A stretch of 64,000 nucleotides of DNA from the NCBI RefSeq assembly GCF_000204415.1, contig NC_015416.1:2728001-2792000 (forward strand), read 5' to 3'. The stretch comes from Methanothrix soehngenii GP6. GTDB lineage: Archaea; Halobacteriota; Methanosarcinia; Methanotrichales; Methanotrichaceae. Below, in pieces: positions 199 through 21,393 of this stretch; position 1 is the first letter of the stretch, and each line of letters starts with the position of its first letter. The position numbers and the translations under genes were made by a program. The notes beneath the pieces were generated by a model that worked only from the letters and a program-made list of their open reading frames with translations, was not told the origin of the DNA and made no database searches.

Positions 199-1269
199 AT
201 GGAGAATGATCTGTCATGTCTATGGAGCCATAGAAATTGGCTCTTCGCCGTAACATTGCTTCTCATACTTCTCTCCTCTTACTTCCTCTGGCCGCTGCAG
301 GACGGCATTGTCTTGGGAATAGTCTTCACTTATCTAGGCCGTCCGGTGAGGGATCTGTTTGGAAAGAGAAGACAGATTGGCTCTCTGGCGGCTATTATCT
401 GCATCATCGCCCCATTATCCATTATATTTGCTGCCGGGGTCTTTGAGGCAGCATCTCAGCTCAGATGGCTGCAGAGCCATCGGGCGCAGATCGTAGCCAC
501 TGGCCAGGAGTTCATATCCAGCATTTACATTCCTCAATTCATCTTCGATGAGCTTTCCAGAGGCATGGACAATCTGATGGGAATAGGACTATCGATGCTC
601 ACCAGCTTGCCGGTATTCGATCTGGGAACGACGCTGACCCTCGGGCTTCTGAATCTCTTAATAGCCTTTTGTGTATGCTACTACCTGCTGGTGGATGGCG
701 ATAGGCTCCTCGGGGCAACGATAGATTTCTTGAGGCAGAAGAAGGGGGATTTTGAGCTTCGATGCCTGGGCAGAATTGATGGCATCTTAAGCGGCATCTA
801 TACGGGCAGCATCTCCACCGCCATGGTCTATGCGATCGCCTCCGTTCCCATATTCTATCTCTTCGACATTCCCAGGCCCCTGGCTATGGCCAGCATAATA
901 CTCCTGGCAGGGGTGGTGCCGTTTTTAACCTGGCTTGTCTTCCTCTTGACCGCCGTATCCAGATATATTGAGATGGGGCCGATGGAGGCAGCAGTCTTCT
1001 TCTTCGCGGCCTCGGTTCTGGTGGCAGCAGTGGAGCTGGTCGTCCGGCCCTATATCGTCTATGCCAGATCGTCGATCCATCCCATGCTGGTGCTGCTCGC
1101 ATTTCTGGGCGGAGGGCTTGTGGGCGGGGTCTTTGGATTCTTTCTCGCTCCCGCAATGCTGGGAACGATCTCTGGCATCTATCAGATGATAAAATCAGAA
1201 CTGACAGGGATTAAGAGAGGGCATCAGCTGGAGAAAGTGGATGCTTTTGCGGCCATTCAAAATAATTAA
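199..1269 (+). CDS. AI-2E family transporter (UPF0118-type permease)
   Basis: A 356-residue membrane protein. Hydrophobic segments are visible near residues 14-48, 60-85, 140-165, 205-260 and 265-335, with a long soluble stretch between the early and later groups. This is the layout of the AI-2E/PerM family, whose members have 6-8 membrane helices and usually 330-380 residues. The late motif with the glycine-rich run FLGGGLVGGVFGF is characteristic. Family members export small molecules or ions; the substrate cannot be read from the sequence. It stands alone, followed by about 320 bases of non-coding DNA. Confidence 0.85.
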   Translation: MENDLSCLWSHRNWLFAVTLLLILLSSYFLWPLQDGIVLGIVFTYLGRPVRDLFGKRRQIGSLAAIICIIAPLSIIFAAGVFEAASQLRWLQSHRAQIVATGQEFISSIYIPQFIFDELSRGMDNLMGIGLSMLTSLPVFDLGTTLTLGLLNLLIAFCVCYYLLVDGDRLLGATIDFLRQKKGDFELRCLGRIDGILSGIYTGSISTAMVYAIASVPIFYLFDIPRPLAMASIILLAGVVPFLTWLVFLLTAVSRYIEMGPMEAAVFFFAASVLVAAVELVVRPYIVYARSSIHPMLVLLAFLGGGLVGGVFGFFLAPAMLGTISGIYQMIKSELTGIKRGHQLEKVDAFAAIQNN

Positions 1270-1594: not shown

Positions 1595-2314
1595 ATGTTG
1601 AGCGACTTGCGCCTCTCCATTGTGGCAGAGCTGATAAAGGATCACGTCGCCTTAGACGGGATCGATGGATATTGCCAGGAGACGGGAGTGCAATGCTTTG
1701 ATTTTATCCCCATCGAGCCGGCTGACTTCCAGGGGAGGATACTGGCCATAGACGGCTCCAATGTCTCCGTCTGCGGCTGGTCTGTAGCAAGCATCAATCT
1801 GATCCGTTCGGGCTATGTGGTCTATCAGGGAAGAGACTGGAAGAGGACGGTCATCACCTTTAATGATATCTTCTTTGCCGATCCGGCAATTTCAGCCGAC
1901 CAGTTCGAGCCCCACTTGAGGCGCCTGGGCCAAAATCAGATCCGCCTTGCGGAAGAGGATTTAGATAGGCTCTCCACTTACTTCCGCGAGCTTCAGGAGT
2001 ACATATCCATAGACGACGCCATCACCGAGGCAAATCCCGGCGACATAATCCTCTATGACGGCAGCTTCGATGTCTTCGAGCCCCTGCGAGCAGCTCTCTC
2101 TCGTGTCTTTGAGCGAGCGGAGGAGAAAGGGGTCGCCCTCCTGGCAGTGGCCAAGTCCAGTTCGCTCTATTGGGGCGAGGGCATATCGCTTCATTTATTG
2201 GAATATGGAGCAGGATTGTATAGAGCTAATTTAGACGATTGCAGGATAATTCGAATTAGTAGGATAAGCGACCGAGCACCTGGTGCAAATGGATTTCAAA
2301 TTCAATCCGGTTAG
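1595..2314 (+). pseudogene. Truncated NurA-like nuclease (remnant copy)
   Basis: 239 residues that align with the first two thirds of the complete NurA encoded just downstream. Shared landmarks are DGSN near residue 53, NLIR-GYV, LDRLSTYFRELQEYI and LLAVAKSS. NurA nucleases are usually 330-450 residues. Here similarity stops after the KSSSLYWGEG region at about position 2190, and the last 40 residues are unrelated and AT-rich. The body is GC-rich (many CTC, GGC, GCC codons), unlike the AT-rich downstream nurA. It lacks the C-terminal part, including the last conserved acidic and histidine positions, so it is probably inactive. It looks like the 5' part of the original resident nurA left behind when a foreign copy was brought in. 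A functional short protein cannot be excluded. Confidence 0.7.
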
Positions 2315-2331
2315 ATATTCACGAATACAAT

Positions 2332-2375
2332 ATGAGGATTGGATGATAGACAAATGAGGATTGGATGATAGACAA
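2332..2375 (+). repeat. 22-bp tandem duplication at the nurA start
   Basis: The 22-base unit beginning ATGAGGATTGG and ending AGACAA occurs twice back to back (2332-2353 and 2354-2375). Each copy carries a GAGG ribosome site and an ATG. In the first copy the frame is MIDK followed directly by a stop; in the second it opens the full nurA frame at 2365. This marks a slip or junction event exactly at the boundary between the remnant and the complete gene. Confidence 0.85.
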
Positions 2376-3402
2376 GACTTCACTCGGAGCAATTGCCGAA
2401 CAGGTCAAGAATTATGTATTGATGGATAGCATAAGTCAATATTTTGAAGAAACTGGCGTTAGAGATAACGATTTTAAAGAAATTATTTCTGAAGATAAAT
2501 TTGAAGGAAATATTTATGCGGTGGATGGAAGCAATGGTATCATCTTTGATCTGCCATCTGTTAGTTTCAATCTAATACGAGCAGGATATGTATCCTATAT
2601 CGCTAAAAATTGGCAAAAAACCATCCTTTTCGATAAAGTCTTTAAAGCAGATCCAGATAACTATCGGTATCAGTTCGAGGCAGATCTTAGCAAGAGTTTT
2701 AATATCAATAGCAATTTTGTCTTGGCCAAAACAGAGCTGGATAGACTTTCAACATACTATAGAGAACTCCAAGAGTATATAGCTCTTTACGAAGCCATTT
2801 CTGACGCCAAAAAAGGAGACCTTGTGCTCTATGATGGAGATTTCGCGTATTGGATGGATCCATTTGGAGAAGTCCTCAAAATGATATTTGATGAAGCAGA
2901 GGACAAAGACTTGGATTTGCTGGCGATCAGTAAATCTAGCACTTTCTCATGGGGCAAAAGCTTTTCAAAACCTTTTATCCTTCATACCGGCTACGTTGGA
3001 AGTCAATTGATATCAAATAATCCATGGCATATAGAATTGAGTGAGAAAAATATAAAGCCACAGCCAAGAGGCAAGAATTGGAACGGAAAGATCTACGTTG
3101 TAAAACTGCATCCAAATTCTGAATTTGTTTTCCGGCTTGACGCGCCGCAGTATGTTTCAGTTCGAATTGATAATGCTTTGGGACATCTATCTGCATATTC
3201 AAAATCATCAGAATGCTTGGGCTACCCGCATGCCCTATTTAGAGCTCATAGAGATATAGCCATAAAAGATTTGGAAAGAGTGCATCTCAATAATCTCCTA
3301 TTAGATGAACTGAGTGATAGAGGTGTAAATGACAAATACATCCGCAACTCATTGAACTATCATATGATATTAGAAATGAAGCATGGGAGGAGAATAATAT
3401 GA
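2365..3402 (+). CDS. nurA: NurA, 5'-3' nuclease partner of HerA
   Basis: A 345-residue NurA-domain nuclease of normal length. It carries the metal-binding DGSNG near residue 53, the helical LDRLSTYYRELQEYI, LYDGDF, and the C-terminal conserved region around ALFRAHRDIAIKD that supplies late acidic and histidine positions. NurA works with the HerA translocase and Mre11-Rad50 to resect double-strand breaks into 3' overhangs. The start at 2365 follows a GAGG site and lies in the second copy of a 22-bp duplication. The stop overlaps the herA start (ATGA), which implies translational coupling. The gene is strikingly AT-rich (ATA, AAA, GAT codons) compared with the remnant upstream. Confidence 0.9.
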   Translation: MIDKTSLGAIAEQVKNYVLMDSISQYFEETGVRDNDFKEIISEDKFEGNIYAVDGSNGIIFDLPSVSFNLIRAGYVSYIAKNWQKTILFDKVFKADPDNYRYQFEADLSKSFNINSNFVLAKTELDRLSTYYRELQEYIALYEAISDAKKGDLVLYDGDFAYWMDPFGEVLKMIFDEAEDKDLDLLAISKSSTFSWGKSFSKPFILHTGYVGSQLISNNPWHIELSEKNIKPQPRGKNWNGKIYVVKLHPNSEFVFRLDAPQYVSVRIDNALGHLSAYSKSSECLGYPHALFRAHRDIAIKDLERVHLNNLLLDELSDRGVNDKYIRNSLNYHMILEMKHGRRII

Positions 3403-5021
3403 AAAATCAATTATCAATCATTGGAGACGACATAGGTTCGAATCTATTAGAAAGAAAGATAGTAGACAAAACGAAAACAACTACTTATAAGATTATATCA
3501 AAAGATGTCAGAGAATTCCATTTTATAATTCCATATGACGAAAGGGTCGAACTGGGCCAAATATTTTCTATCAAGGATTACAGCGTGAAAGATGACGAAA
3601 TTACATTCCTAGCAAGGGTTACGGATATTCAACATGATTCAAATTATGATGGAAAATGGGATACAACGCTTAAAGGAACGGCATTCTATGACGAGGACCA
3701 GATATTCAATAGAGTTGTAGCCGAGCCGCTTGGATGCATAACATTCAATAAAAAAATGGGAAAAAAAGAGTTCAAAAAATCAAAGACAATCCCCTTAAAG
3801 TTCTCTGAAGTAGAGAAAGCAAGTCTTGACGAATTTAGGTTTTTAACGGAGAAGATGGGCGACTTGGAAGTAGGGTATTTGAGAAATGGAAGTCAAGTCG
3901 TTGAAGAGATAGGCGTAAAACTAAATAGTGAGATCATGGATCATCATATGGGCGTTTTCGCGACCACCGGAATGGGAAAATCAAATTTTATGAAGGTTTT
4001 TGCGGCTTCATGCATGAAGAAAGCCTCAATGGGTGAATCAAAACTAGGCCTTCTACTTGCAGATCCACATGGGGAATATCTCATGGGAAGTGCCAAAAAT
4101 AATACTAAAGGCTTACTTCATTTAAGTGAGTACAAAAATGGTTTAAGATGCTATTCCACCAACAACAAAAATGCAAAAGAAAATGCCGAAGTTGAGACTT
4201 TAAAGATAGGAATAAGAGATATAAATCCAACTGATATCTTGCCACTATTTGGGGAATGGCGGCCCGCTCAAAAAGAAGCTATCGAAATCATGGATTCTGA
4301 AAACGCGGCCGATTGGCTTGAGAGTTTTAAAGAGAATAGAGAGTTAGTAATAAAGGATATTCATGAAAAAACAATTGAAGTAATTAAAAGAAGACTGAAT
4401 TTGCTTCTTCGATACAGCTATATAGATGAAAAAAATTCCAGCATCGATAAAATTATCAAGCAACTCAAAGAAGGAAAGGTTATTCTTATAGATATGGAAG
4501 GAATTAAGGAAAGAAGCGAGCTATTCCTTCTTTCGCTACTTTCTCGTCGCATCCTTGATGAATATCAAAAAGATAGTCTGGATAATGATAAAAATACTTG
4601 CCTTATAGCAATTGAAGAGGCGCAAAGAGTCCTTGGTGGCGGAGATGGCAGCATCTCTGGATTCGAAATTATAGCCAGAGAAGGAAGAAAGTTTGGCGTT
4701 GGCCTATGCGCGATAACTCAGCAGCCGAAATTAGTAGACAAGCTATTGTTATCTCAGTTCAATACATTAGTTATAATGGGCCTTGGTGATAGAAATGATA
4801 GAAAATGCTTAGAGGAATCTGCAAAACAGGATTTGACAACTCTTGATGTAGAAATCCAAACTTTGGAAAAAGGTGAAGCAATAATAAGCACACTAAAGGT
4901 GCCTTTCCCTATTCCTGTCACCATTCATTTGTATGAAGATTACATAAAGCAATTGAAAGAGCAGGATAAAGACCTGAATCGCAGTAGCAGAGGCAAGAAG
5001 CTAGTTAGACCACCTAATTAA
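3399..5021 (+). CDS. herA: HerA, bipolar DNA helicase/translocase
   Basis: A 540-residue FtsK/HerA-type ATPase. The N-terminal ~120 residues form the HAS-barrel region. Walker A (TTGMGKSN) lies near residue 190, Walker B (LIAIEEAQRV) near 405, and an arginine-rich IIAREGRKFGVGL with ITQQP follows, typical of hexameric HerA. HerA forms a ring that drives NurA along DNA during end resection. It overlaps nurA by 4 bases and is followed 20 bases later by mre11, so all four genes should be co-transcribed. The whole gene has the AT-rich codon use of the block that ends inside rad50. Confidence 0.93.
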   Translation: MKNQLSIIGDDIGSNLLERKIVDKTKTTTYKIISKDVREFHFIIPYDERVELGQIFSIKDYSVKDDEITFLARVTDIQHDSNYDGKWDTTLKGTAFYDEDQIFNRVVAEPLGCITFNKKMGKKEFKKSKTIPLKFSEVEKASLDEFRFLTEKMGDLEVGYLRNGSQVVEEIGVKLNSEIMDHHMGVFATTGMGKSNFMKVFAASCMKKASMGESKLGLLLADPHGEYLMGSAKNNTKGLLHLSEYKNGLRCYSTNNKNAKENAEVETLKIGIRDINPTDILPLFGEWRPAQKEAIEIMDSENAADWLESFKENRELVIKDIHEKTIEVIKRRLNLLLRYSYIDEKNSSIDKIIKQLKEGKVILIDMEGIKERSELFLLSLLSRRILDEYQKDSLDNDKNTCLIAIEEAQRVLGGGDGSISGFEIIAREGRKFGVGLCAITQQPKLVDKLLLSQFNTLVIMGLGDRNDRKCLEESAKQDLTTLDVEIQTLEKGEAIISTLKVPFPIPVTIHLYEDYIKQLKEQDKDLNRSSRGKKLVRPPN

Positions 5022-5041
5022 ATTGCGGAGCATTAAGAAAA

Positions 5042-6190
5042 ATGAAGATAGTTCACATGTCAGATTCGCATCTAGGTTTTTCTGCCTATAATAAGGTAGA
5101 TCAATACGGCAGAAATATCATTGAAGAAAAAATCTATCAAGGTTTTGAGCATGCAATAGACAAAATAATTAAAGATATAAAACCAGATGCAATTGTGCAT
5201 GCAGGGGATGTATTTCATCATGTAAGACCTAGAATACGAACGCTATACGTATTTAAAAGTGCAATAGAAAAGCTAGATAAAAAAAAGATACCCACAATTA
5301 TTATTAGTGGAAATCATGATGCTCCTAAGTCGTCATCAACTACCAGTCCTTTCTCTCTCTTTGAAGGTCTAGAGCATATTCATGTAGTACATCGCAATGA
5401 ATATGAAAGCATTCCAATTAGAGACTATGTCTTTCATTGCATACCATTCTGCCTTGATAATAGGGCATACTTGGATGAATTCAGCAAAATAAAACCAACA
5501 GGTTCTGACGTTCTCGTTATGCATGGTCTTATCGAATCACTGAAAGATAAACGCCTTAGGACAGTTGGCGAACATGAACTTAGTGATAGCTTTCTCAAGA
5601 GTTATTTTTCATACATAGCGCTAGGGCATTATCATAACCAAGCTCAAATTGCAGAGAATGCATGGTATAGCGGATCTATTGAATATTTTAATTTTGGCGA
5701 GTCATCTGATAAGAAAGGAATTCTTCTTGTAGATCTTGATACAAATAATGTGGAACAAATAGATTTAAGGCCAAAGTATATGATTGACCATCCTGCAATA
5801 GATTGCACCGGATTTTCAACTGCGGATTTGGCGGAAGAACTCTTAGACTTATGCAACGAAGAGGATATTAAGGACAAAATAGTCAGGATAAATTTGAAAA
5901 ATGTTTCAAGAGCCGCATTTAAGAGTATTGATCCTTCATACAGAACAAGGTTGGGTTCCTCTGCGTTATTTCTAAAGATAAGAGTCGAATATTACGATGA
6001 TGAAGAAAACGATAATATTCAATTGGATTCCACACAACTCGATGAGGCTTTTTCAAGATTTTTAGAAGAAGAATCACAAAAAAATAAGATTAGTAGCGAA
6101 ATATCAAAAGATGTTACTACATATGGAAGAGATGTTATGAAAAGAGCAATTTCAATTCATAACTTAGGGAGACTTCATGCTTCTGAATAA
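5042..6190 (+). CDS. mre11: Mre11, DNA repair exo/endonuclease
   Basis: A 382-residue calcineurin-like phosphoesterase with all Mre11 motifs in order: DSHLG (D8, H10), HAGDVFHH, GNHD with downstream PKSS, MHGLIES, and GHYHNQ. These residues bind two manganese ions. Mre11 with Rad50 senses and trims DNA double-strand breaks. Its end overlaps the rad50 start by 14 bases. The C-terminal ~100 residues correspond to the capping and Rad50-binding region. AT-rich like its upstream neighbours. Confidence 0.93.
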   Translation: MKIVHMSDSHLGFSAYNKVDQYGRNIIEEKIYQGFEHAIDKIIKDIKPDAIVHAGDVFHHVRPRIRTLYVFKSAIEKLDKKKIPTIIISGNHDAPKSSSTTSPFSLFEGLEHIHVVHRNEYESIPIRDYVFHCIPFCLDNRAYLDEFSKIKPTGSDVLVMHGLIESLKDKRLRTVGEHELSDSFLKSYFSYIALGHYHNQAQIAENAWYSGSIEYFNFGESSDKKGILLVDLDTNNVEQIDLRPKYMIDHPAIDCTGFSTADLAEELLDLCNEEDIKDKIVRINLKNVSRAAFKSIDPSYRTRLGSSALFLKIRVEYYDDEENDNIQLDSTQLDEAFSRFLEEESQKNKISSEISKDVTTYGRDVMKRAISIHNLGRLHASE

Positions 6191-9100
6191 ACTTGTTTTA
6201 CGTAATTTTAAAAAGTATAGACGCGCGACAATTGAATTTCAGGAAGGATTGACAGGTATCATTGGTAGTAATGGTTCAGGAAAAAGTACAATAGTAGAAG
6301 CAATCGCATGGGCACTATATGGTAATAAGGCATCATTAATCAAGAGAAATCTTATAAAAAATACCCATGCTAATGAAAATGAGCCCGTTGAAATAACACT
6401 ATTTATTAGTCAAGATAATATAGATATGAAAATAATTAGGAACATGAAAGGAAAAAACCTGATTCCTGATGCAACACTATATATAAATGATGATATAATA
6501 TCTTCTGGAACACGAGATGTAGATAAAATGCTTGAAGAAATTCTCAATATCAGCTATCAGGATTTCATGAAGACCTTCTACGCCCGGCAAAAGGACCTGG
6601 ACAACCTCCTCAAAGAGGGAGGAATGGGAAAGAGGGAGTATCTGCTCAAGCTCCTGGGATTGGAGGACATAAAGGAGAGCGCCCTGGAGCAGATCAAATC
6701 CGATCGATCAAGCCTTGAAGACCAGAGAAGCCGGCTGGCCGGAGCCTTGGGGGAGATCGGGGAGGTCCAGGCCCGGCTGATGGAGGCGTCACGGGAGATA
6801 TCCTTTGTCAGAGAGGGGCTGGTGGAGGGGGAAAGATGCGAAGCCCAATTGCTGGGGGAGAAGGAGTTGCGGCTCATGGAACTGGATGTTCTTAACCAGA
6901 AGATGAACTCTTATGGCATTCTGGCGGAGAGGGCCTCCCGGCTGCAGGAGGAAGCCAGGAGCCTGGAGGTTCTCATAGCCAGAGATGAAGGGCGTCTGAA
7001 GGAGATCGAGGCATCAAAGAGGCTTCTCGAAAAGATCGGTCCCGCTCTGGATAGGCTGACCGGAGTCCTGTCAAGGCTCGAGCTGCTTGAGCCCAGGAGG
7101 AACCTGTACGAGGAGATCTCCAGGAAAATAGCAGTGGCAAAGTCTCGACTGGAGGGAGATAGAGCTGCTCTGGAGAAGGATGAGAAGAGGCTCGTGCAGC
7201 TTGAAGGGGATAGGGCCAGGCTCGATGAGCTTCTGCCCCAGGAAGAGGATTACAAAGAGGTTCAAGTGCTCCTGGCCAGGTTGGAAGAGCTGCGAGAGAG
7301 GTATGCCAAAATCAGCCTGAGCCAGAAAGAGGATGCTATCAGGCTACAAGGAGCAAGGTCGAACCTGGTCCGAGCGGACAGATCTATAGAGGATCTGCAA
7401 AGAGCGTCTGCCAGGTACGAAGAGCTTTGGCCGGCAATAGAAGAAGAGAAGAGGCTGAAAGTTGAGCAGACGAAGCTTTCCGGAGAGAAGGAGAGGCAAC
7501 GAGAGCTTGACCTTCTGGAGAGCCAGAAAAAGGCCCTGGCGGGCAGGATAGCAGCCCTGCGGGAGGCAGCAGCAAAAATCCGGGAGAATCTTCTGGGCCT
7601 GGGAGACCTGGAAGGAAGAGAGGGAGAGCTGCGCCGGCAGGATAGGGACCTTGATTCTCTCGGATCCGAGCTGAACAACGCTTTGGCCGACCTCAGGGGG
7701 AGCCTGAAGGTTCAGGAGAATACGTATCTGGAAAATGAGAGGGCACTTAAAAAGGTCAGTACTCTGGGAAGGGAGGGGCTCTGTCCCACCTGCGAGAGGC
7801 CAATAGAGGGCCAGAGGGATCTGCTCCTCGGAAAGTACCAGTTCGCTCTGGCCCAGGCAAAAGAGGAGAGGGAGAAGCTGAAGGGAATGGCGGCCTCACT
7901 CACTGAGAAGATCGAGGGGGTGGCAAGCTCTCGTAGCCGGCTGGCCGGGGCCTTCGAGGATCTGAATGCCAAAAAGAGCCTGCGCTCTGCTCTGCAGGCG
8001 GATATGAGAAATGCCGATTTGCAGATAAAAGAGGCCACTGAAGAGATGGAAGGGATCATGGCTATGGTCGGATCTTTTGGTCCTGTCTCCTTTGACGCCA
8101 AAAGGCTCCAGGATGTCGAAGCCGCTCTGACAAAGCTCGCGCCAATGGCGGAGGAGTGCCAGGGCCTGGCAGTGCGAAAAGAGGAGCTGCCCCGGAGGGT
8201 ACTGGAACGGGAGGCGATAAAAGAAGAGATAGAGACACTGGCCAAGAGAGGGGAGCATCTGGAGGAGCAGATCAGAGAGCTGGGCTACTCAGAATCTCAA
8301 TATATCGAGGCTAAAAGATTGTGGGAGAGCTGCAAGTTCCCGCACGAGCAGTTTATCACCCTTCTGGAGAGGACAAAGGAGATCCCGGCTCTGGAGGAGA
8401 AGATTGCTCTTCAGAGGAGCGAGATAGAAAAAGCCTCCCGGTCCCTGGTGGAGCTGGAGAGATCTGTCAAGGATCTGGGCTTTGATCCGGAAGAGTACAG
8501 CTCTTTACTGGCAGAGAGAAAGAGGCTGGCCCAGGCGGAGGAAGAAGCCAATAAAATAAAAATCCGGCTGGCTCTTGAGCCCGAGGTCAAAGAAAAGCTG
8601 GCCGAGTCTCAAGGTGCCCTGGAAGCCAGGCAATTGGATATCGCCCGGATAAGGGCGGAGATGGAGTCATTGGCCTACAGCCAGAGGACCCATGAGATGG
8701 CAAAACTTGCCCTGGCCGAGGCGGAGAGGAATCTCGTGGCATCGCAAAAGGAACTGTCCGACAAAAGGATTCGCCTTGGCGTCCTGGAAGCGGAACTGGC
8801 AAGGCTGAAAGAAGAGGAGAAGAGAAAGAAGGAGCACCAAAAGAGGCTGGAAGAGACCTCGAGGAGGCTGGAGGTGGTGGAGATGACCCGAGGCCTTGTC
8901 AACGATTTTATGGATCAGGTTCTGATCAGGGTGAAAAACGATATCGCCAAAGCGGCCAGCGAAATCCTGGAGGAGGTCTCAGGCAAGTACAGCCTGCTGA
9001 AGATCGACGACGACTTCAACATTCAGGTGGAGGACGGCGGCAATTACTACCCCATCTCCCGCTACTCCGGCGGGGAGATCGATATGATCGCCGTATCGGT

Positions 9101-9356
9101 GCGGGTGGCCATAAGCGAGTACTTGATGCGCTTCGGCCCGGATGGTGAGAGCTACTCCTTCCTGATCTTAGACGAGGTCTTCGGCAGCCAGGATATCGAG
9201 CACCGGGAGAAGATGATCCAGATGTTAAGAAGCTTAGAAGAGCGTTTTCCCCAGATAATCGCCATCAGCCACATCAGCGACGTGCAGGGGCAGTTCGACA
9301 ATACATTGCTGGTGGTGGAGGACGAGCTGGGCAACAGCCGGGTAGAGGCAATTTGA
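6177..9356 (+). CDS. rad50: Rad50, SMC-like ATPase (compositional chimera)
   Basis: 1059 residues, somewhat longer than most archaeal Rad50 (about 850-900), with the extra length in the coiled coil. Walker A (GSNGSGKST) is near residue 33, the zinc-hook CPTC near 537, the ABC signature SRYSGGEID near 965, and Walker B with D-loop (LILDEVFGSQD) near 1000. The central part is heptad-like, rich in E, K, R and L. Codon use switches abruptly at about position 6560-6580 (residue ~130): before it AT-rich (ATA, AAT, GAT), after it GC-rich (CTG, GAG, CGG). The N-terminal ATPase lobe therefore matches the AT-rich nurA-herA-mre11 block, and the rest matches the host. The frame is intact, so a working hybrid is plausible. 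Confidence 0.93.
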   Translation: MLLNKLVLRNFKKYRRATIEFQEGLTGIIGSNGSGKSTIVEAIAWALYGNKASLIKRNLIKNTHANENEPVEITLFISQDNIDMKIIRNMKGKNLIPDATLYINDDIISSGTRDVDKMLEEILNISYQDFMKTFYARQKDLDNLLKEGGMGKREYLLKLLGLEDIKESALEQIKSDRSSLEDQRSRLAGALGEIGEVQARLMEASREISFVREGLVEGERCEAQLLGEKELRLMELDVLNQKMNSYGILAERASRLQEEARSLEVLIARDEGRLKEIEASKRLLEKIGPALDRLTGVLSRLELLEPRRNLYEEISRKIAVAKSRLEGDRAALEKDEKRLVQLEGDRARLDELLPQEEDYKEVQVLLARLEELRERYAKISLSQKEDAIRLQGARSNLVRADRSIEDLQRASARYEELWPAIEEEKRLKVEQTKLSGEKERQRELDLLESQKKALAGRIAALREAAAKIRENLLGLGDLEGREGELRRQDRDLDSLGSELNNALADLRGSLKVQENTYLENERALKKVSTLGREGLCPTCERPIEGQRDLLLGKYQFALAQAKEEREKLKGMAASLTEKIEGVASSRSRLAGAFEDLNAKKSLRSALQADMRNADLQIKEATEEMEGIMAMVGSFGPVSFDAKRLQDVEAALTKLAPMAEECQGLAVRKEELPRRVLEREAIKEEIETLAKRGEHLEEQIRELGYSESQYIEAKRLWESCKFPHEQFITLLERTKEIPALEEKIALQRSEIEKASRSLVELERSVKDLGFDPEEYSSLLAERKRLAQAEEEANKIKIRLALEPEVKEKLAESQGALEARQLDIARIRAEMESLAYSQRTHEMAKLALAEAERNLVASQKELSDKRIRLGVLEAELARLKEEEKRKKEHQKRLEETSRRLEVVEMTRGLVNDFMDQVLIRVKNDIAKAASEILEEVSGKYSLLKIDDDFNIQVEDGGNYYPISRYSGGEIDMIAVSVRVAISEYLMRFGPDGESYSFLILDEVFGSQDIEHREKMIQMLRSLEERFPQIIAISHISDVQGQFDNTLLVVEDELGNSRVEAI

Positions 9357-9357
9357 T

Positions 9358-9492
9358 TTGATCTATCAACTCACCATCCAGCTGAAAGCACAGCGGTTCC
9401 TTAAGAAGCTAAAAAAGAAAAATCCGGATGCAGCGTCAGAAGTAGTAATGGATATATTTGAGCTAAAAAATGATCCCAAGACATCGATGTGA
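9358..9492 (+). pseudogene. RelE/ParE-type toxin, N-terminal fragment
   Basis: A 44-codon frame starting at a possible TTG two bases after the rad50 stop reads like the beginning of a RelE/ParE mRNA interferase (IYQLTIQLKAQRFLKKLKKK), with the typical FLKKL helix. It stops at 9490-9492 at about half the usual 85-95 residues, so the catalytic C-terminal strands are missing. Probably a decayed toxin gene. The small gene after it may be its antitoxin. Confidence 0.45.
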
Positions 9493-9503
9493 GTTTATAA
9501 AAG

Positions 9504-9677
9504 ATGGCTTCGTCAGTTGAAATCATAAAGAACAAAAGTTCCCGAAAGCTTGATGCCTTCATAGACTCCTTGACCGACAAAGAGATTGATGAGTTGAACG
9601 CCGATGAAGGCGGTGATGAAGAGCCTATGCCTTTTGAGGAGTTTTGCAGGAAAGCAGGCATTAAACTTCAAAAATAA
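9504..9677 (+). CDS. Small acidic protein, possible antitoxin
   Basis: A 57-residue frame starting MASSVEIIKN and ending AGIKLQK. It begins 11 bases after the RelE-like fragment. The protein has a basic N-terminal helix and a strongly acidic middle (EIDELNADEGGDEEP), as in the disordered toxin-wrapping tails of type II antitoxins. No DNA-binding fold is certain. Function is inferred from position only. Confidence 0.4.
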   Translation: MASSVEIIKNKSSRKLDAFIDSLTDKEIDELNADEGGDEEPMPFEEFCRKAGIKLQK

Positions 9678-9726
9678 TTAAGATAGCCCTAGAGCCAGGA
9701 GTGAACCCCTGATAGTAGACAGGTAG

Positions 9727-9812
9727 TTAAGCAACAGTATTTAAAGCAACCTCCAATTCGAACTGATCCGGAGACATGTAATGTTGATCACGTACTCCCT
9801 TTATCCCCGATG
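9727..9812 (-). pseudogene. Possible transposase C-terminal remnant (IS3/integrase-core-like)
   Basis: On the minus strand a short frame ends with YMSPDQFELEVALNTVA and a stop at 9727-9729. The SPDQFE stretch resembles the C-terminal end of integrase-core transposases (IS3 group), which commonly end with a Y-x-SP-x-x-FE motif. Nothing upstream continues the domain. A short relic only, weakly supported. Confidence 0.3.
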
Positions 9813-9842
9813 CAAGGCGGATTTTTTTAAATAAAATCTGGG

Positions 9843-9859
9843 GGGGTGTCAGACACCCC
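9843..9859 (-). terminator. Hairpin downstream of the interrupted LamG-like gene
   Basis: GGGGTGTC and GACACCCC form a compact perfect palindrome. On the minus strand it is followed by a T-rich run (ATTTTATTT). It lies about 45 bases after the stop of the minus-strand gene split by the IS, the right place for a transcription terminator. Confidence 0.45.
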
Positions 9860-9903
9860 ATCCAAGATAGGTTTGGGTCTGTTTATGGATGGCTGCCAAT
9901 TCC

Positions 9904-10074
9904 TCAAGGGGCATCGCCCATCTCGACACAGAGGACATGGGGATCCGCCGTAGAGCGCTTGTACCAGAGCCTCGCCTGACTGAGTCCCACCTCCTTCAGC
10001 ATGGAGTTCAGCTCCTCCGGTGCCACCGGCTTCAGCGTTCCGGCGCTGACGTCGAAGAGGTAGCTTGTCCCTCC
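9904..10074 (-). pseudogene. 3' part of the IS-interrupted secreted LamG-like gene
   Basis: The final 56 codons plus stop of the gene whose 5' part lies at 11788-13065. Reading on the minus strand from the insertion point gives GGTSYLFDVSAGTLKPV and so on to MGDAP and a TGA. The frame matches: both sides use the same codon phase around the duplicated CTTCAG, which encodes Leu-Lys. Excising the element and one duplicate gives an uninterrupted 482-residue protein. This 3' fragment has no start of its own and is presumably not made. Confidence 0.8.
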
Positions 10075-10080
10075 CTTCAG

Positions 10081-11787
10081 CCCACATCCCGCAGGTGGCA
10101 TTTCTTTTATGAAACATTTTTATGTTGACATGATCTTTTAAGTGGAAAAGGGATATGAAGGGGCTTGAAATGAAATTATCAACGCTATCGCTTGACCACT
10201 TAGGTTTAGTTGCCGCGATATTCGATGCTTTGGGAATTTCAGAGGTGATTGATGAATCGATTCCTAAGACTCGTAACTGCAAACTGAGCCATTCTGCGAT
10301 AATAAAAGCAATGGTGATCAACGGATTGGGTTTCGCGGAACGCAGACTGTATATATTTCCCAGCTACTTTGAAAATTTAGCGCTAGAACGTCTTTTTAAT
10401 CCTGGTGTTGTCCCAGAAGATTTTAACGAGGATGTTGTCGGCAGAACCCTCGACCGGATCAATAAATTTGGCTCGACGGCTCTTTTCAATAATATAGCCA
10501 TGAAATGCATGCAACAGCTCGCTTTTGGCACTAATATCTACCATGTTGATACCACGAGTTTTGGTGTTCATGGCGATTACGAAGGACTGGACTGCAATCC
10601 TGCTATGGAGATAACTCTTGGTCATCCTAAAGACGGTCGCTGGGATCTAAAACAGTTCATTGTGAGCATGGTGACCAATCAATGCGGTATTCCTCTCTTT
10701 GTCCAGGCCCATTCAGGAAATAAATCGGATAAGAAAACTCTTATTGAGACGATTCAGATGTTCAAGTCTAATCTGGACTTCTCCGGAAAGAACTACTTTG
10801 CGGCAGATAGCGCCCTCTTCAGTTCCGAGAATATTCGTCTTCTTGGCGATAGCACTCTATGGATAACTCGCGTTCCAACAACCGTTCGTGAGGTTAAAGA
10901 TCTTCAGAGACTAGATCTAGAGATGAAAACATGCTCTGATGATCGATATAGTATCTTTGAGACGGAAATTAACTATGGTGGAATAGATCAGAAGTGGGTT
11001 GTGGTCGATTCCAGAGAAATGCATGCTAGTAAGGCAAAGACTTTCGATAGACGGATCGGCAAAGAGTTCACTGAAGCGCGAAAATCGCTTAAGAAACTGG
11101 GATATATAGTTTTTGCGTGTGAAGCTGATGCCAGAAAGGCTGCAGATCGATGGATATCGGAAAATCCTCATTTCACACTAACTGGCTTAAGTATATGTGA
11201 AATCTCCAAACGCATCGACTCAAAGAGAGGCCGTCCAAAGAAGGATGAGCAGCTTGAGAAAGGCTATCTCATTGAAGGAGAAGTTCAGCGAAATGAGGCA
11301 ACGATCGCTAACGAGAGATCTAGACTTGGCAGATTCGTCCTGGCGAGTAACGATAAGACTCTCGAGGGGGAATTGATGCTTCAATATTACAAAGGCCAAA
11401 ACGCTGTCGAGAAAGGCTTTCGATTCCTAAAAGACAAAAGCTTCCGAGTGGCAGAAGTCTATCTCAAGAAAGAGGAAAGGATCGAAGCTCTATCCATGAT
11501 AATGGTTCTATCTCTGTTGATCTATTCGATTGCAGAATGGATGATTCGGAAGAGGCTGAAAGAATCAGGAGAAACTGTGTTAAACCAGCTAGGGAAACCC
11601 ACGCAATGTCCTACGTTGAAATGGATATTCCAAAAGTTCAGGAATATAAATGAGGCAATTATTGAACTGAAGGGATCGGTTCATCGAGAGGTCATTAATC
11701 TAAATGAAGAACAAATTAAAATTATCAAGTTGTTCGGCCTAGGATGTGAAAAATGCTATATCGGATGAGAGACATGCGGGATGTGGG
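10081..11787 (+). mobile_element. IS1634-type insertion sequence, 1707 bp
   Basis: The element is bounded by inverted ends: CCCACATCCCGCAGGT at 10081 and its near complement ending GCGGGATGTGGG at 11787. It is flanked by a 6-bp direct repeat CTTCAG (10075-10080 and 11788-11793), the target-site duplication. It carries one intact transposase. IS1634 members make 5-6-bp or somewhat longer duplications and have one DDE transposase. Ends and duplication are clean, so insertion is recent. It interrupts a minus-strand secreted protein gene. Confidence 0.88.
10155..11768 (+). CDS. IS1634-family DDE transposase
   Basis: A 537-residue transposase. The N-terminal ~100 residues resemble the DUF4277 region found in IS1634 proteins. 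Candidate catalytic residues are the Asp in YHVDTTSFG, the Asp in FAADSALFS, and the Glu in the C-terminal motif YYKGQNAVEKGFRFLKD, which is the IS4-superfamily Y-(2)-R/K-(3)-E-(6)-K signature. The C-terminal 60 residues sit close to the right terminal repeat. Start is ATG at 10155, or 10170 after an AAGGGG site. No frameshift is seen, so the element is probably active. Confidence 0.88.
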   Translation: MKGLEMKLSTLSLDHLGLVAAIFDALGISEVIDESIPKTRNCKLSHSAIIKAMVINGLGFAERRLYIFPSYFENLALERLFNPGVVPEDFNEDVVGRTLDRINKFGSTALFNNIAMKCMQQLAFGTNIYHVDTTSFGVHGDYEGLDCNPAMEITLGHPKDGRWDLKQFIVSMVTNQCGIPLFVQAHSGNKSDKKTLIETIQMFKSNLDFSGKNYFAADSALFSSENIRLLGDSTLWITRVPTTVREVKDLQRLDLEMKTCSDDRYSIFETEINYGGIDQKWVVVDSREMHASKAKTFDRRIGKEFTEARKSLKKLGYIVFACEADARKAADRWISENPHFTLTGLSICEISKRIDSKRGRPKKDEQLEKGYLIEGEVQRNEATIANERSRLGRFVLASNDKTLEGELMLQYYKGQNAVEKGFRFLKDKSFRVAEVYLKKEERIEALSMIMVLSLLIYSIAEWMIRKRLKESGETVLNQLGKPTQCPTLKWIFQKFRNINEAIIELKGSVHREVINLNEEQIKIIKLFGLGCEKCYIG

Positions 11788-13065
11788 CTTCAGGGTAAAC
11801 GGTCCATAGGCCTTCCAATCGTCGGATACCCCGATGTATCCGGAGACTCTCTTTCCGCTCCAGATTATGTATCTCCCGGGGTCTAAGAGGCATCCTGCTG
11901 TGTTCCTATCAGTGGAGCTGGCCCCGAGATCGGTATAATCGACCGCCGGCCAGGGTAGAAGGTCGAGGCTCTGGCATGGTGCACCCTCCCTGCAATCGAA
12001 GTCGGCACACTTCGGCCTTCCTTCAACGAGCCCCACCTCTTCCGACCTGTCGAAGTCCCCATCAGATAAGGATCTCTGATCATCCCATATTACTACGCTT
12101 CCTATCAGCCCATGAGTGTCAGATCTCCAAGAGTCTGTTCCGATGAGGACCGTCGCATAATTCGGGTTTGGAAGCCCGCCAGTGTGGGGATTAGTTCCCT
12201 TCAGGATCCCATCGACCCAGATCTCCACCCCCCGGGGCCCCCAGGTCCCCATGACATGTCGCCATTCTCCGATAAGATCTTCTGGAGGTATGCCGCTATC
12301 TGCCACCTTCCATCCGCCAGCCCATATCATGAAGACCAGGTTTTTGGAGTACCTGCTGTGCGTACCCAGGTAGAATCCGTCATCATAGCTTCCGCCGTAC
12401 TCCCTCCCTGACGCCGCTAGGACGAAGTCCTTAGGGGCCGACTCAAGTCTGACCCACATCTCTATAGACCCTTGCTTGAGGTCCCTCGTCGGGTTCTGGT
12501 GGACGTTCCCTACCCTCACATAATCTCCGCTCCCGTCCAGCTTCAGGGCAGGAGCGTATCCCTCTTCTGCGACGATGGATACGTTACCAAATAATTCTCC
12601 GGGATGCTGTCCGGTCGCATCGTCGGCATCCCCATCGAAGTAGTAAAGGGCAACGACGGTTTCTTCGATCTCTCCGTTTGCGGCGGGGGAAGCCTCCCTC
12701 CGCACCACAGAGAAGGTGTTGCTCCGGGCGATCTCTTCATAACTGCTGCTTCCGGCCCAGTTCTCAAACATCCTGAACTCGTACTCCCCCAATTCCTGGG
12801 GGGCGGCAAAAGTCAAAGTCCCGCTCTTTTCGCCTCGCAGGTAGCTCCACTCCCCGTATCTTTCATTCGCTGCGTCTATCCTGTAGATGGCGATCCAATC
12901 GGTGTCGAATCCTGGTGCGCCAGAGTAGACGACGGTTATCTTATCTGCAGGGTTTACTGCAGATGGCGAAGCAGAAAGGGTCGGCAGCTGGCCGGAACCG
13001 AGGCTGATAACTGCAAAGAACAATAAGACCATAGTGCCAGCGCATAAAATCCGTCTTATTTTCAA
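11788..13065 (-). pseudogene. 5' part of secreted LamG/ConA-like domain protein, cut by IS
   Basis: TTG start at 13065, chosen because a strong GAGGTGG site lies 6-7 bases upstream. A signal peptide (basic KIRR, then LCAGTMVLLFFAVISLG) is followed by an immunoglobulin-like beta region (about 30-125) and a LamG/concanavalin-like domain (about 135-330) with YYFDGDADDATG, LKLDGSGDYVRV and IEMWVRLE. The C-terminal region has DFDCREGAPC and SGKRVSGYIGVS. Probably extracellular carbohydrate or cell-surface binding. After residue 426 the frame runs into the IS and would end with about 20 foreign residues. The true C-terminus lies beyond the element at 9904-10074. The original product was 482 residues. 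Confidence 0.85.
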
Positions 13066-13076
13066 TTTAAGCCACC

Positions 13077-13271
13077 TCAGGATGAATAAGACGCTAAACT
13101 ATGAACATCTTTTGGTATCATATCATTTTTGGGTAGTCCACCTTGGCAGGCTCTTTCTGCTGGAATAGGGACTGTCCTGGCTATGGCAAAGTAGATCACG
13201 GCAACATCGTTCGATACGGCCGGATCGACAAGGCACTCAGCACTTGAAATGCATACTACTGTCGCAGGCAT
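13077..13271 (-). CDS. Small unrecognised ORF upstream of the LamG-like gene
   Basis: 64 codons from an ATG at 13271, ending with a TGA that overlaps the ribosome site of the LamG-like gene, so the two could be coupled. The product (starting MPATVVCISS) has three cysteines and a hydrophobic VAVIYFAIA segment. No family recognised. The arrangement is suggestive but the frame could be chance. The stretch 13272-13641 beyond it holds no gene, only AT-rich DNA and a fragment of a TTTGTGCCTTTGCGCC-type dispersed motif. Confidence 0.25.
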   Translation of the reverse strand: MPATVVCISSAECLVDPAVSNDVAVIYFAIARTVPIPAERACQGGLPKNDMIPKDVHSLASYSS

Positions 13272-13641
13272 CGTTCTCTAAAATATAGAAGTGATGAGGG
13301 AATAATACGGCAATCGATTCCTATACTAATTGTTCTTTCGCTGGGATCTTTTATATAATTGCTATAATCTTCAGCCATACTGTCTTGCCCCGCTTGTTCG
13401 ATTGATAGATTATATGAAAGAACTTTCGGATGGTTATTTGGTATATGATAAAAAAATATGAATTATTCACACGAAGCGAAACAGGACAGGTACGAAATAT
13501 TTTCGGGACTACACAAAATTTTCCCTTCATCACAATATAATCGCTCTGCTCTAAAATGCGTGGCTAACGTACTGTAGAAAATTTTCCTTTGTGCCTTTGC
13601 GCCTTTGTGGTGAGGCCTACGAATCCCGATTTCACCATACT

Positions 13642-14826
13642 TCAGCCCAAAGCATAGCGCAGCAGTCCGGCCAGCTTCAAGCCATCCCAGTCCAAATGAA
13701 AGAGCATCTTGATCATCAGACTGCTGGGCCGGTCGATATCCCCATGCTCTTCTATGGTTTTGATGAGCGCGGGCCTTCCGGCCAGGTAATTCACCAGCTC
13801 GTCGCATTCTTTTGCGCTCATTCGATTCAGCATCCGGTTTGCCCTCATGCCGATCTCAAGCTCCCGGCCCAGATTGGCCCGCCAGATCCGGTCGTACTCC
13901 TGCAGCCTCTGGGCAGAGCCGTCGCCTTCCATTGCAGCAGCTGCAGCCACGCCACCTGCGATTTTGGCCGCCACCAGTCCGGGATAGATCCCTCCTCCTG
14001 AGGTGGGCTTGACCTGGCCGGCAGCATCGCCCACCACCAGTAGGCCCTGGGCGACGGTCACCGGGGGCGGGCCCAGCGGCAGGCCGCCTACGTTTATCGT
14101 TGTTGCCGATCCAAGGATCCTCTTCCTTATCACCTCCTGCCCGAGAAATCTCTTCAAATGCTCGCATCCCCTCTCTCTGGCGCACAGGCCGATGCGGGCG
14201 GTCTCTTCTCCCGTGGGTATCACCCAGGCGAAGAGGCCTGGTGCCGCTCCAAGGTGCACCTCAACCGATTCGGGATCCTCTACTGCAAACGGGAGCTCCA
14301 GCTGTGCTCCGGACAAAACCAACTCCGGCGGCATGATCCCCGCCTGCCGGGCCAGCCTGCCCCTGACTCCTTCTGCGCTGATGACAATCGATGCCCTTAT
14401 CTCATCTCCTCCCCCAATGGAGAGAACGCTCTCTTCCCCCTCCCGTCTTATTCTTCTGACCGGCGAGCAGAGCCTCATCTCCACCCCCTCATGCAGGGCC
14501 TCGCAGGCTGCTGCCCGGTCAAAGAGCCTCCTGTCCACTACGCTTGCCCTTGGATCCTGGGCTTTGAAGTCCAATCGATTCCCGCCAGGGGAATAGATCG
14601 CTGCCCCTTTCATCCTCCTCAGGACAAAGGAGCTGCCCGGCAGCTCCGACTCCGCCAGAGCGCCCAGGCCCAGGAGGCCGGCGCATTCCACCGGCCAGCC
14701 CACCGCTGGATGCTCCTCCAGAATGACCGCATTAGCTCCCGATTTGGCGGCATACTTGGCGGCCATGGAGCCTGCCGGGCCGGCGCCGATGACAGCTACA
14801 TCAAAGCGTTCTTTCAGGATAGACAT
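13642..14826 (-). CDS. Geranylgeranyl reductase family flavoprotein
   Basis: 394 residues from ATG 14826 (MSILKERFD). A longer frame from 14853 exists, but it would lie deep in the upstream gene. FAD-binding Rossmann motif GAGPAGSMAAK is near residue 15, and the second dinucleotide motif VVGDAAGQVKPTSGGGIYPG near 275, as in digeranylgeranylglycerophospholipid reductases. These enzymes saturate archaeal membrane lipid or quinone isoprenoid chains. A second member, with its own ferredoxin, lies at 47911-49086, so this copy may act on another isoprenoid substrate. It overlaps the upstream minus-strand gene by 13 bases, suggesting one transcript. Confidence 0.85.
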   Translation of the reverse strand: MSILKERFDVAVIGAGPAGSMAAKYAAKSGANAVILEEHPAVGWPVECAGLLGLGALAESELPGSSFVLRRMKGAAIYSPGGNRLDFKAQDPRASVVDRRLFDRAAACEALHEGVEMRLCSPVRRIRREGEESVLSIGGGDEIRASIVISAEGVRGRLARQAGIMPPELVLSGAQLELPFAVEDPESVEVHLGAAPGLFAWVIPTGEETARIGLCARERGCEHLKRFLGQEVIRKRILGSATTINVGGLPLGPPPVTVAQGLLVVGDAAGQVKPTSGGGIYPGLVAAKIAGGVAAAAAMEGDGSAQRLQEYDRIWRANLGRELEIGMRANRMLNRMSAKECDELVNYLAGRPALIKTIEEHGDIDRPSSLMIKMLFHLDWDGLKLAGLLRYALG

Positions 14827-15215
14827 CTCTCCAGGTATTCTACCAGATCGCATATCGTCTCGATCTTTTCATCGATCTGAGTGCCATCGGAGATGCGGTC
14901 GTACACCAGATCCCAGCAGGAATAGTTCCTCAGCCTGAGAACGGGCTCTCCTTTTGGCGTCCAGGCCATTTCAATCTCATAGCGCATCCACTGGCCGTTC
15001 TCTCGTCTGACCTCAAAGCTTGGACAGTCTCCGACGGCGCCGCCGGAAAAGGCTATTCTTCCGCCATCCACTTCCTCATCGATCTGTGCATTGATGAACA
15101 GCCTTATCCAGCGTATATATTTCGAGTAACGGTAAGCCCCCTCCGAGAGACTGACAGGACCCTCCCAGCCGGGGATCTCTCTCATGTTCTCCAGATTCCA
15201 TTCCTCCAAATTCAC
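14814..15215 (-). CDS. Conserved-looking protein of unknown function
   Basis: 133 residues from a GTG start. Composition is soluble and mixed alpha/beta, tryptophan-rich (W6, W18, W36 and later WMRYEIEMAW), ending DLVEYLERC. No family is recognised. It overlaps the geranylgeranyl-reductase-like gene downstream, so a linked role is possible. An in-frame ATG 10 codons later is an alternative start. Confidence 0.6.
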   Translation of the reverse strand: MNLEEWNLENMREIPGWEGPVSLSEGAYRYSKYIRWIRLFINAQIDEEVDGGRIAFSGGAVGDCPSFEVRRENGQWMRYEIEMAWTPKGEPVLRLRNYSCWDLVYDRISDGTQIDEKIETICDLVEYLERCLS

Positions 15216-17805: not shown

Positions 17806-19125
17806 CTATCCACCTCCATCAGATGACCTTTTCTGGTCGGGCTTGTTCACAGAAATATCTTCAAGCGCTCGCAAGAGAGCCTTCTTCCGGCTACTATCGC
17901 TCATTCCATAAAAGGCATCTACAATTGCAGCTACCTTATCCGTCAGATGCTCATCCTTCAAAGAAGGTTCATGGCAGGACTCATTTCGACCTTTTTTCCT
18001 CTTTCTGCAATCAACCTCTTGATAGAACTCCTGGTTGATCAGAAGATGATAAATCAGACAGATGAGTTTCCTGGCTACGGCAACGATTGCCACATTGTGC
18101 TCCTTCTTTTTGCTCAGCCTCTTGTAGAATCTGGACAGCCCTGTATTTTTCATATTAGCTATTGTCTGGGCAGCCTCGACAAGTACAACTCGGATATACT
18201 TGGAACCGCGCTTTGTGATCCCGCATTTCCTCTTTTTGCCGGCAGATTCATTTTCTCCAGGATTGAGGCCACACCATTTCGCCAGCTGTTCAGGGGTCTG
18301 AAAATCTCTGTAATTTCCGATCTCTGACAGGATGACCGAACCTGAGATAAATGCGATTCCAGGAATGGACATAACGATAGCCAGATCCTTGCTCTTATTT
18401 TGAATCTTTTTCAGAATGTTTAGGCTTGTCTTCTCTATTTTGGATTCGACATTGTCCATGATTTCAAGAGAATCGCTGATCAGCATTCGATTTGTCTCGC
18501 TCAGTTCATTGGCAAGTGCTGATCTGATCTCGTCTTGCTTTTTCCTGATCTTTCCGGAGGGTATGCCTTTCAGGATCTCTTCGACGGGCTTGTCTTCAGC
18601 CAGACCTCTTATGATATGTGTTCCTGATTTGCAGAATATGTCGTCCATAGAAGAGCTGAGTTTAATGCCGTTTGATGAGAGATATTTGTGTATCCGATTC
18701 TTGAACTGAGTTCGTGTCTTGACATATCCTGACCTGGCTCGCGTTAGGTTCCTGAGCTCTCGGTCTTCATCGGAAAAAACCCGAGATCTCTTGATTTGAT
18801 TATTCAAGCACAGAGTTGCAATACGCTTTGAATCTTTTGAATCTGATTTATCGTTTGGAATGGACTTTATCTGCAGCGGATTGGCAACAATGGTATCTAT
18901 GGTTCGGCTCAGAACATCATAAATCGGGATCCAATAGACTCCTGTAGCTTCAAATGCAACCTGTTCGCATTTGTTGTCTGCAAGCCAGTTTCTGAATCTA
19001 TCAAGCTCGGATTTTGTTGTCCCAAAATTCTCTCGAATCGACGGCACTTCGTCGCCAGTTATTGTGGCAACGATCAGATCTTTATGGACATCTGCACCGC
19101 AAACTCTTTCTCTTCGTTTTTTCAT
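17806..19125 (-). CDS. IS110-family transposase (DEDD recombinase), copy 1
   Basis: 439 residues from ATG 19125 (MKKRRERVCG). The frame is open further upstream, but that DNA carries the candidate bridge RNA. The N-terminal RuvC-like DEDD domain has the first Asp in GADVHKDLIVA, Glu in AFEATGVYW, and DKSDSKDSKRIA. The C-terminal Transposase_20 domain has MSIPGIAFISGSVILSEIG and KWCGLNPGENESAGKKR, with the conserved serine region following. IS110 recombinases use an RNA guide to pair target and donor DNA. Frame intact and identical to copy 2. Confidence 0.92.
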   Translation of the reverse strand: MKKRRERVCGADVHKDLIVATITGDEVPSIRENFGTTKSELDRFRNWLADNKCEQVAFEATGVYWIPIYDVLSRTIDTIVANPLQIKSIPNDKSDSKDSKRIATLCLNNQIKRSRVFSDEDRELRNLTRARSGYVKTRTQFKNRIHKYLSSNGIKLSSSMDDIFCKSGTHIIRGLAEDKPVEEILKGIPSGKIRKKQDEIRSALANELSETNRMLISDSLEIMDNVESKIEKTSLNILKKIQNKSKDLAIVMSIPGIAFISGSVILSEIGNYRDFQTPEQLAKWCGLNPGENESAGKKRKCGITKRGSKYIRVVLVEAAQTIANMKNTGLSRFYKRLSKKKEHNVAIVAVARKLICLIYHLLINQEFYQEVDCRKRKKGRNESCHEPSLKDEHLTDKVAAIVDAFYGMSDSSRKKALLRALEDISVNKPDQKRSSDGGG

Positions 19126-19137
19126 ATATGTCTCTGC

Positions 19138-19284: not shown

Positions 19285-19356
19285 ACTTAACATGGACGGA
19301 TTAAAATATCTGGTTTTCCATCCGTCACGTGTGAGCCCCTGCCTGGGCTCATGGGC

Positions 19357-21381: not shown

Positions 21382-21393
21382 ATATGTCTCTGC

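Follow-up and report, generated by a model that had tools for sequence, protein, structure and literature searches.

An AT-rich foreign nurA-herA-mre11 segment and a hybrid Rad50 at the end-resection locus of Methanothrix soehngenii

DNA-repair machines are usually thought to resist transfer, as their parts have to fit one another. The locus analyzed here raises the question of how such a machine came to be composed of two kinds of DNA, with one of the boundaries lying inside a gene. It is located in a stretch of 64,000 nucleotides of Methanothrix soehngenii GP6 (contig NC_015416.1, 2,728,001-2,792,000), which we call the window; the genome comprises 3,026,645 bases in 2 contigs, is 99.96% complete, and is labelled G000. 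From left to right, a gene for an AI-2E transporter is followed by a GC-rich nurA-like open reading frame (ORF), by AT-rich nurA, herA, and mre11 genes, by the AT-rich start of rad50, and by the GC-rich rest of rad50. The locus was compared with those of other Methanothrix and other Methanotrichaceae genomes (G-labels), several of which are metagenome-assembled genomes (MAGs). The DNA from position 2193 to approximately 6550, carrying the end of a donor gene, nurA, herA, mre11, and rad50 codons 1-124, is foreign, and both ends are resident. A related donor segment also entered a second Methanothrix species, represented by G030. With a probability of roughly 85%, we propose that DNA of an AT-rich relative displaced the resident operon through a crossover at the Q-loop block of rad50 and a non-homologous join on the left. 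The parts of the locus are as follows, all on the plus strand, with identities to the counterparts in G030 and in the other genomes:

1595 to 2192: 5′ fragment of the resident nurA, about codons 1-199, without the conserved C-terminal part
2199 to 2330, with a clear match at 2199-2270: decayed fragment of a donor gene, an 850-aa ORF that is whole in G030
2365 to 3402: foreign nurA, complete (PF09376, E 3.5e-11; G030 82%, others 38-49%)
3399 to 5021: foreign herA (PF01935; G030 82%, others 56-60%)
5042 to 6190: foreign mre11 (PF00149; G030 78%, others 47-62%)
6177 to 6548: rad50 codons 1-124, foreign, most of the N-terminal ATPase lobe with Walker A (G030 82%, others 48-63%)
6549 to 6625: rad50 junction block, about codons 125-149 (ISYQDFMKTFYARQKDLDNLLKEGG), with the Q-loop glutamine, by alignment to M. 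jannaschii Rad50 structures
6563 to 9356: rad50 from about codon 130 to the stop, resident, with the coiled coil, CxxC hook, signature, and Walker B

GC content was 0.50-0.55 at 1401-2200, 0.32-0.41 at about 2200-6570, and 0.52-0.59 at 6600-9200. GC at third codon positions (GC3) was 0.61 in the nurA fragment, 0.35 in the new nurA, 0.34 in herA, 0.26 in mre11, and 0.63 in rad50 as a whole; most of the remaining long ORFs of the window showed 0.55-0.75, with a few AT-rich exceptions. Both profiles confirmed a preliminary description of this DNA, in which a GC-rich truncated nurA stood ahead of a complete AT-rich nurA-herA-mre11. Within rad50, GC3 per 20 codons was 0.05-0.30 up to codon 120 and 0.65-0.85 thereafter, a step that was not seen in the resident rad50 genes of the genus. 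That description had let the AT-rich style end at about 6560-6580 without a frame break. The in-frame switch held, but the position was approximately 10-20 bp too far to the right: a maximum chi-square scan placed the last donor-like site at 6548, and the next informative site, 6563, was host-like (chi2 605; maximum of 1000 permutations, 19). The rad50 gene is open throughout (1059 aa) with its frame intact across the switch, such that GSNGSGKST (Walker A), Q138 (Q-loop), CPTC (hook), SGGE (signature), and LILDE (Walker B) all lie in one frame, and the hybrid Rad50 matches archaeal Rad50 structures over both lobes. The junction block encodes YQDFMKTFYARQKDLDNLL, including the Q-loop glutamine, and belongs to the top 0.1-6% of 60-bp windows for between-genus DNA conservation in the operon. 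Stretches of such high conservation are where diverged sequences would be expected to cross over.

Separate phylogenies of the parts, which had been suggested as a test, showed that Rad50 131-1059 and the nurA fragment followed the host genus, and that Rad50 1-130, Mre11, HerA, and the new NurA did not. In the NurA tree, the truncated G000 copy fell inside the genus and the new copy outside, together with the new NurA of G030 (support 100/100). Mre11 of G000 and G030 formed one clade (100/100) adjoining other genera of the family, and HerA likewise grouped the G000 copy with the foreign copy of G030. As for Rad50, G000 and G030 were sisters in the tree of residues 1-130 (100/99); in that of residues 131-1059, G030 was placed with G027, G029, G031, and G024, and G000 elsewhere in the genus. 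The approximately unbiased (AU) test rejected a clade of G000 and G030 for the C-terminal part of Rad50 (p 9e-5), and it rejected G030 with its own species group for the N-terminal part (p 2e-5) and for Mre11 (p 2e-67). The earlier claims of a foreign Rad50 ATPase lobe with a matching foreign Mre11, both of which group with the foreign copies of G030, and of homologous recombination in rad50 with DNA of an AT-richer relative were supported by trees, AU tests, and the breakpoint scan alike. The tree outcome named beforehand as a refutation, both Rad50 parts and Mre11 following the host housekeeping genes, was not obtained.

The only close relative of the new NurA, HerA, Mre11, and Rad50 1-130 was the same segment in G030. 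A Mre11 profile search of Genome Taxonomy Database (GTDB) contigs recovered Methanotrichaceae, to which this Mre11 type is confined within its class (others ≤37% identical); a single-protein NurA scan of GTDB contigs gave no match. The G000 genome holds a single rad50, a single mre11, and NurA only as the fragment and the foreign copy. No exact run of more than 20 bp is shared between the donor-derived and resident nurA-herA-mre11. Between G000 and G030, the foreign genes showed synonymous divergence (dS) of 0.65-0.99 and nonsynonymous-to-synonymous ratios (dN/dS) of 0.09-0.14; the dS of host genes was 1.6-2.0 for the same pair and 0.13-0.61 for G030 vs G027. These values fit two entries from one donor group and continued function. 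That the hybrid Rad50 works with the foreign Mre11 is suggested indirectly by the kept frame and by dN/dS of 0.09-0.20. An assignment of the foreign HerA to an anti-phage HerA system was rejected, with NCBIfam models at 46-50 bits vs cut-offs of 800-850, NurA as the partner, and PADLOC matches that were generic.

At the left join, the preliminary description proposed that the resident nurA start had been left behind. This was borne out: the fragment covers the first 199 or so codons, is 54-66% identical to the resident NurA of the genus, and is placed by the tree in the genus. The nurA-like ORF itself has 239 codons (1595-2314) and past about 2192 reads on into foreign DNA. In G000, homology to resident nurA stops at about 2192; in G030, it extends beyond that point by no more than about 20 codons. 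The donor-gene fragment that follows reached a nucleotide score of 164 vs 97±11 in shuffled sequences (500 shuffles, none as high) and a protein score of 55 vs 30±4 (1000 shuffles, none as high). As 2199-2270 is a decayed piece of the G030 ORF, the left join connects the resident nurA to an unrelated donor gene, part of which was carried in from upstream of the donor nurA. Within the family, the 850-aa ORF is whole only in G030 (L095:5926-8478), with the fragment in G000. Searches of Pfam, NCBIfam, and PADLOC assigned it to no family at their cut-offs, with only a weak match to DUF5711, and it is possibly a beta-propeller. A further feature had been described at this junction:

2332 to 2375: 22-bp tandem duplication, copies starting at 2332 and 2354, read directly from the sequence

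The duplication exists, but the junction is approximately 140 bp to its left; the duplication spans the start of the new nurA and is a change separate from the left join. Its first copy forms a 4-codon mini-ORF (ATG ATA GAC AAA TGA) directly ahead of the new nurA, and translation of nurA could be altered by it.

We then consider the second hybrid. G030 is a Methanothrix MAG from Lake Pavin (contig JAPKXZ010000051.1, 123 kb) of a species group other than that of G000. Its rpoB is all but identical to that of G027, and G027-like flanks, nurA fragment, and Rad50 body are kept around the foreign part. The order is a resident nurA fragment (92% to G027 NurA), the 850-aa donor ORF, NurA, HerA, Mre11, and Rad50; identity to G000 is 82% for NurA, HerA, and Rad50 1-130 and 78% for Mre11, and the Rad50 body is 70-86% identical to that of G027. 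In the DNA alignment, the switch lies between AAT and TATCAGGACTTCATGAAGACC, beyond which G030 differs from G027 by 1 base in about 74. Because the G030 Rad50 returns to the sequence of its own lineage in the same conserved block, we take the two Rad50 hybrids to be independent. Among 64 syntenic ORFs sampled between G030 and G027, the median identity was 95%; five were below 65%, three of these being nurA, herA, and mre11 of the locus and the others 2 of about 60. At codons 181-300, the nonsynonymous difference (pN) was 0.21-0.23 for G030 vs G027 and 0.06-0.13 for G027 vs G031. The synonymous difference (pS) was raised too, and compensation for the new Mre11 is not claimed for this post-junction change.

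On these results, the displacement would have proceeded as follows. An ancestor would have taken up DNA of an unsampled AT-rich relative, most likely of the family Methanotrichaceae. On the right, homologous recombination would have joined donor and resident rad50 within the conserved Q-loop stretch and kept the frame; on the left, the join inside the resident nurA would be non-homologous, as in homology-facilitated illegitimate recombination. Of the two junctions that define that process, the one in shared sequence is represented by the Q-loop block in G000 and G030, the donor being known only from these products, and the non-homologous one by the passage from resident nurA to the unrelated donor ORF. 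The signs of in-situ displacement were likewise found: the inner genes have a phylogeny unlike that of their neighbours, the resident counterpart is lost, and the foreign block stands at the resident locus, flanked by the AI-2E transporter, a reductase gene, and the resident parts of nurA and rad50. A single end-resection machine would have remained in the cell: its NurA, HerA, and Mre11 are foreign, and its Rad50 combines a foreign N-terminal lobe with the coiled coil and C-terminal lobe of the resident protein. As nurA, herA, mre11, and rad50 are each essential in Sulfolobus islandicus (PMC4351679), an incoming set presumably had to function from the start, and NurA, HerA, and Mre11 would be expected to arrive together. 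The new operon is probably driven by the resident upstream region, which holds one more element:

1404 to 1450, no strand assigned: conserved inverted repeat GGCAAAAGTC-N27-GACTTTTGCC, upstream of the resident nurA and kept after the replacement

The loop of the repeat is CCCTCC-rich. The repeat also occurs upstream of nurA in many members of the genus, in G039, and in G003, and its sites include L032:2016-2061 and L104:5627-5675. The G000 genome has 3 exact copies and 0 of a reversed control; the other two copies map near 938607 and near 1196355, where a threonyl-tRNA-synthetase-like ORF adjoins the copy at 1196355. The repeat is possibly a regulatory or leader element. Because the resident upstream region is retained with it, the new genes may use the resident promoter.

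As to the donor, no match above about 30% was obtained from IMG/VR (with the 850-aa ORF and the Mre11 profile) or from collections of phages and plasmids, and on present evidence the donor is an unsampled AT-richer relative in or near the family. Several points weigh against the proposed displacement. The donor was not found; hence, no donor rad50 could be read past codon 125, and the two products alone indicate where the crossover took place. The gene trees differ on the nearest genus of the donor. Monophyly of the genus together with the foreign copies was not firmly rejected (Mre11 p 0.06, Rad50 N-terminal part p 0.39), so a deep lineage within the genus could be the donor. Finally, the cuts in nurA are at most about 20 codons apart in G000 and G030, as could also result from one shared event with later spread.

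The same end product would arise in two steps. A whole foreign operon could first have entered the resident nurA, either on a mobile element or through an illegitimate join. The foreign and resident rad50 genes would then have served as direct repeats at the Q-loop block, and a deletion between them would have taken the rest of the resident nurA, herA, mre11, and the rad50 start together with the foreign rad50 end. What such states may look like is shown by G034, in which the C-terminal remnant of a resident rad50 stands directly behind a complete foreign operon and has the same orientation; the remnant, however, starts only at residue 844, and G034 is hence not itself a precursor of the G000 form. 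Moreover, no genome was seen with both operons complete, and no integrase or transposase occurred among the ORFs of the G000 segment or of the extra 2.6 kb of G030 (end repeats were not systematically searched). We regard this route as possible but rather unlikely. The ORFs of the segment, in which no integrase or transposase was found, likewise gave no sign of an integrative mobile element; the IS-type transposase gene at 10155-11768 lies outside it.

A quite improbable alternative is that the hybrid arose once and spread between Methanothrix species by homologous recombination in the resident flanks, G030 having inherited its switch. The common switch block and the nearby left cuts would be explained, as would Rad50 codons 151-330 of G030, which are less G027/G031-like than the remaining body and slightly nearer to G024, as if a resident-type rad50 had co-travelled. 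Yet past the block G030 and G000 share nothing above the genus average, across it G030 and G027 differ by only that single base in about 74, and the left joins retain different donor DNA, a whole ORF in G030 vs a fragment in G000. The dS of the foreign copies (0.65-0.99) also exceeds that of G030 vs G027 (0.13-0.61). As for the absence of any transfer, the composition step then being due to local drift, an assembly error, or a strain mixture, several relatives are indeed MAGs, and the G035 contig measures 4.6 kb at a coverage of 2.6. The window genome, however, is in 2 contigs and 99.96% complete, the unrelated G030 assembly has the same switch on a 123-kb contig, and the foreign parts depart in protein phylogeny, beyond base composition, leaving this idea an almost negligible chance.

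Displacement at this locus is not confined to G000 and G030. In all family genomes in which both genes were measured, GC3 of mre11 was within 0.07 of that of rpoB, except in five (mre11/rpoB: G000 0.26/0.76, G030 0.30/0.65, G034 0.40/0.62, G035 0.30/0.60, and G039 0.38/0.64). The composition step was therefore not common to all relatives; a step shared by all of them is what the preliminary description had named as refuting its model. Replacements were found in 5 of the 22 genus genomes with a readable mre11, and the GC3 test revealed none in other genera of the family, among which G005 was the sole AT-rich member seen (0.40/0.43). In G034, the resident nurA is cut near codon 137 ahead of the different, complete AT-rich operon noted above. 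In G039 (L032:2426-9085), AddB-like and AddA-like genes replace nurA-herA, so that the type of resection machine has changed, and mre11-rad50 point the other way; of the resident genes, C-terminal remnants of nurA, its frame broken, and of rad50 are left. In G035, the resident nurA and herA start are followed by herA that is foreign from about codon 247 and then by AT-rich mre11 and rad50; this is the weakest case because of its short contig and low coverage. In G020, G025, and G039, the final 50-140 residues of Rad50 show high identity, which was rejected as evidence of resident remnants because that region is conserved genus-wide; the G034 and G039 remnants are consequently recognized by position and gene context only, and G020 and G025 are uncounted. 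The relatives show that the locus was swapped about five times in the genus, with the same Rad50 splice made a second time. The five incoming operons are all AT-rich (GC3 0.26-0.40) despite their different branches, which may mean AT-rich mobile carriers or AT-rich donor species. In G017, which has an intact nurA, part of another nurA-like gene close to the end of a contig (L096:125-556, G017:C3) may be one more remnant.

The resident flanks of the G000 locus are formed by two genes:

199 to 1269, plus strand: AI-2E family transporter (PF01594), left flank
13642 to 14853, minus strand: FAD-dependent reductase-like gene (geranylgeranyl reductase type, named from sequence), right flank

The transporter is 57-66% identical within the genus, the replaced genomes being no outliers, and 96% identical between G030 and G027. 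The reductase gene lies directly 3′ of rad50 in several members of the genus. In the window, approximately 4.3 kb (9357-13641), with a DUF4277/DDE IS-type transposase gene (10155-11768) and a 446-aa ORF, separates the two. Identical 495-codon ORFs on the minus strand at 17809-19293 and 20065-21549 look like copies of one transposable element.

In-situ operon displacement, reportedly described in Genome Biol in 2003 (4:R55), is said to place a foreign block in the position of its counterpart inside a resident operon, with the resident neighbours kept. The Methanothrix locus resembles such xenologous displacement into a mosaic operon in that the foreign block replaces its counterpart in place between kept neighbours. 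It is unlike the described form in that a boundary lies inside rad50, giving a chimaeric protein, that a fragment of the displaced nurA is left, and that the locus was hit about five times in one genus. In bacteria, RecBCD and AddAB have reportedly been shuffled (Cromie 2009, cited in PMC6452273), end-resection machines of different type being swapped by transfer. G039, with AddAB-like genes instead of nurA-herA, is similar; in contrast, the present case is archaeal, the exchange took place in situ at a single locus, and the joins are marked by hybrid proteins and remnants of resident genes. In Vibrio cholerae, type VI effector modules are displaced sequentially, for which the model is a conserved anchor plus an illegitimate join, with remnants beside the new module (PMC5361080). 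The same model would apply here, and displaced remnants adjoin the new module; however, those effector-immunity modules are under obvious diversifying selection, whereas the Methanothrix case is a chromosomal DNA-repair operon. The S. islandicus operon (PMC4351679) is alike in gene content and presumed end-resection function and unlike in that the Methanothrix operon is of mixed origin, with a Mre11 type confined within the class to Methanotrichaceae. A literature search, largely without subscription papers, found no description of such a replacement in Methanothrix, of recurrence at the locus, of a twice-made Rad50 splice, or of the AddAB swap. In-situ operon displacement is a known process, and what we did not find described is its recurrence on this machinery and the parallel Rad50 chimaeras.

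More speculatively, the locus could be an exchange site for AT-rich mobile end-resection cassettes of several kinds, including AddAB with Mre11-Rad50, where viruses that block resection select swaps and the Q-loop block serves as a reusable splice point keeping hybrids working; we hold this unlikely as a whole. A machine that is essential in S. islandicus was exchanged in situ about five times within a single genus, twice through a chimaeric Rad50. G030, with the swap, and G027, without it, form a natural test of which Mre11-Rad50 contacts must co-evolve and of whether archaea trade resection machines as bacteria trade RecBCD and AddAB.

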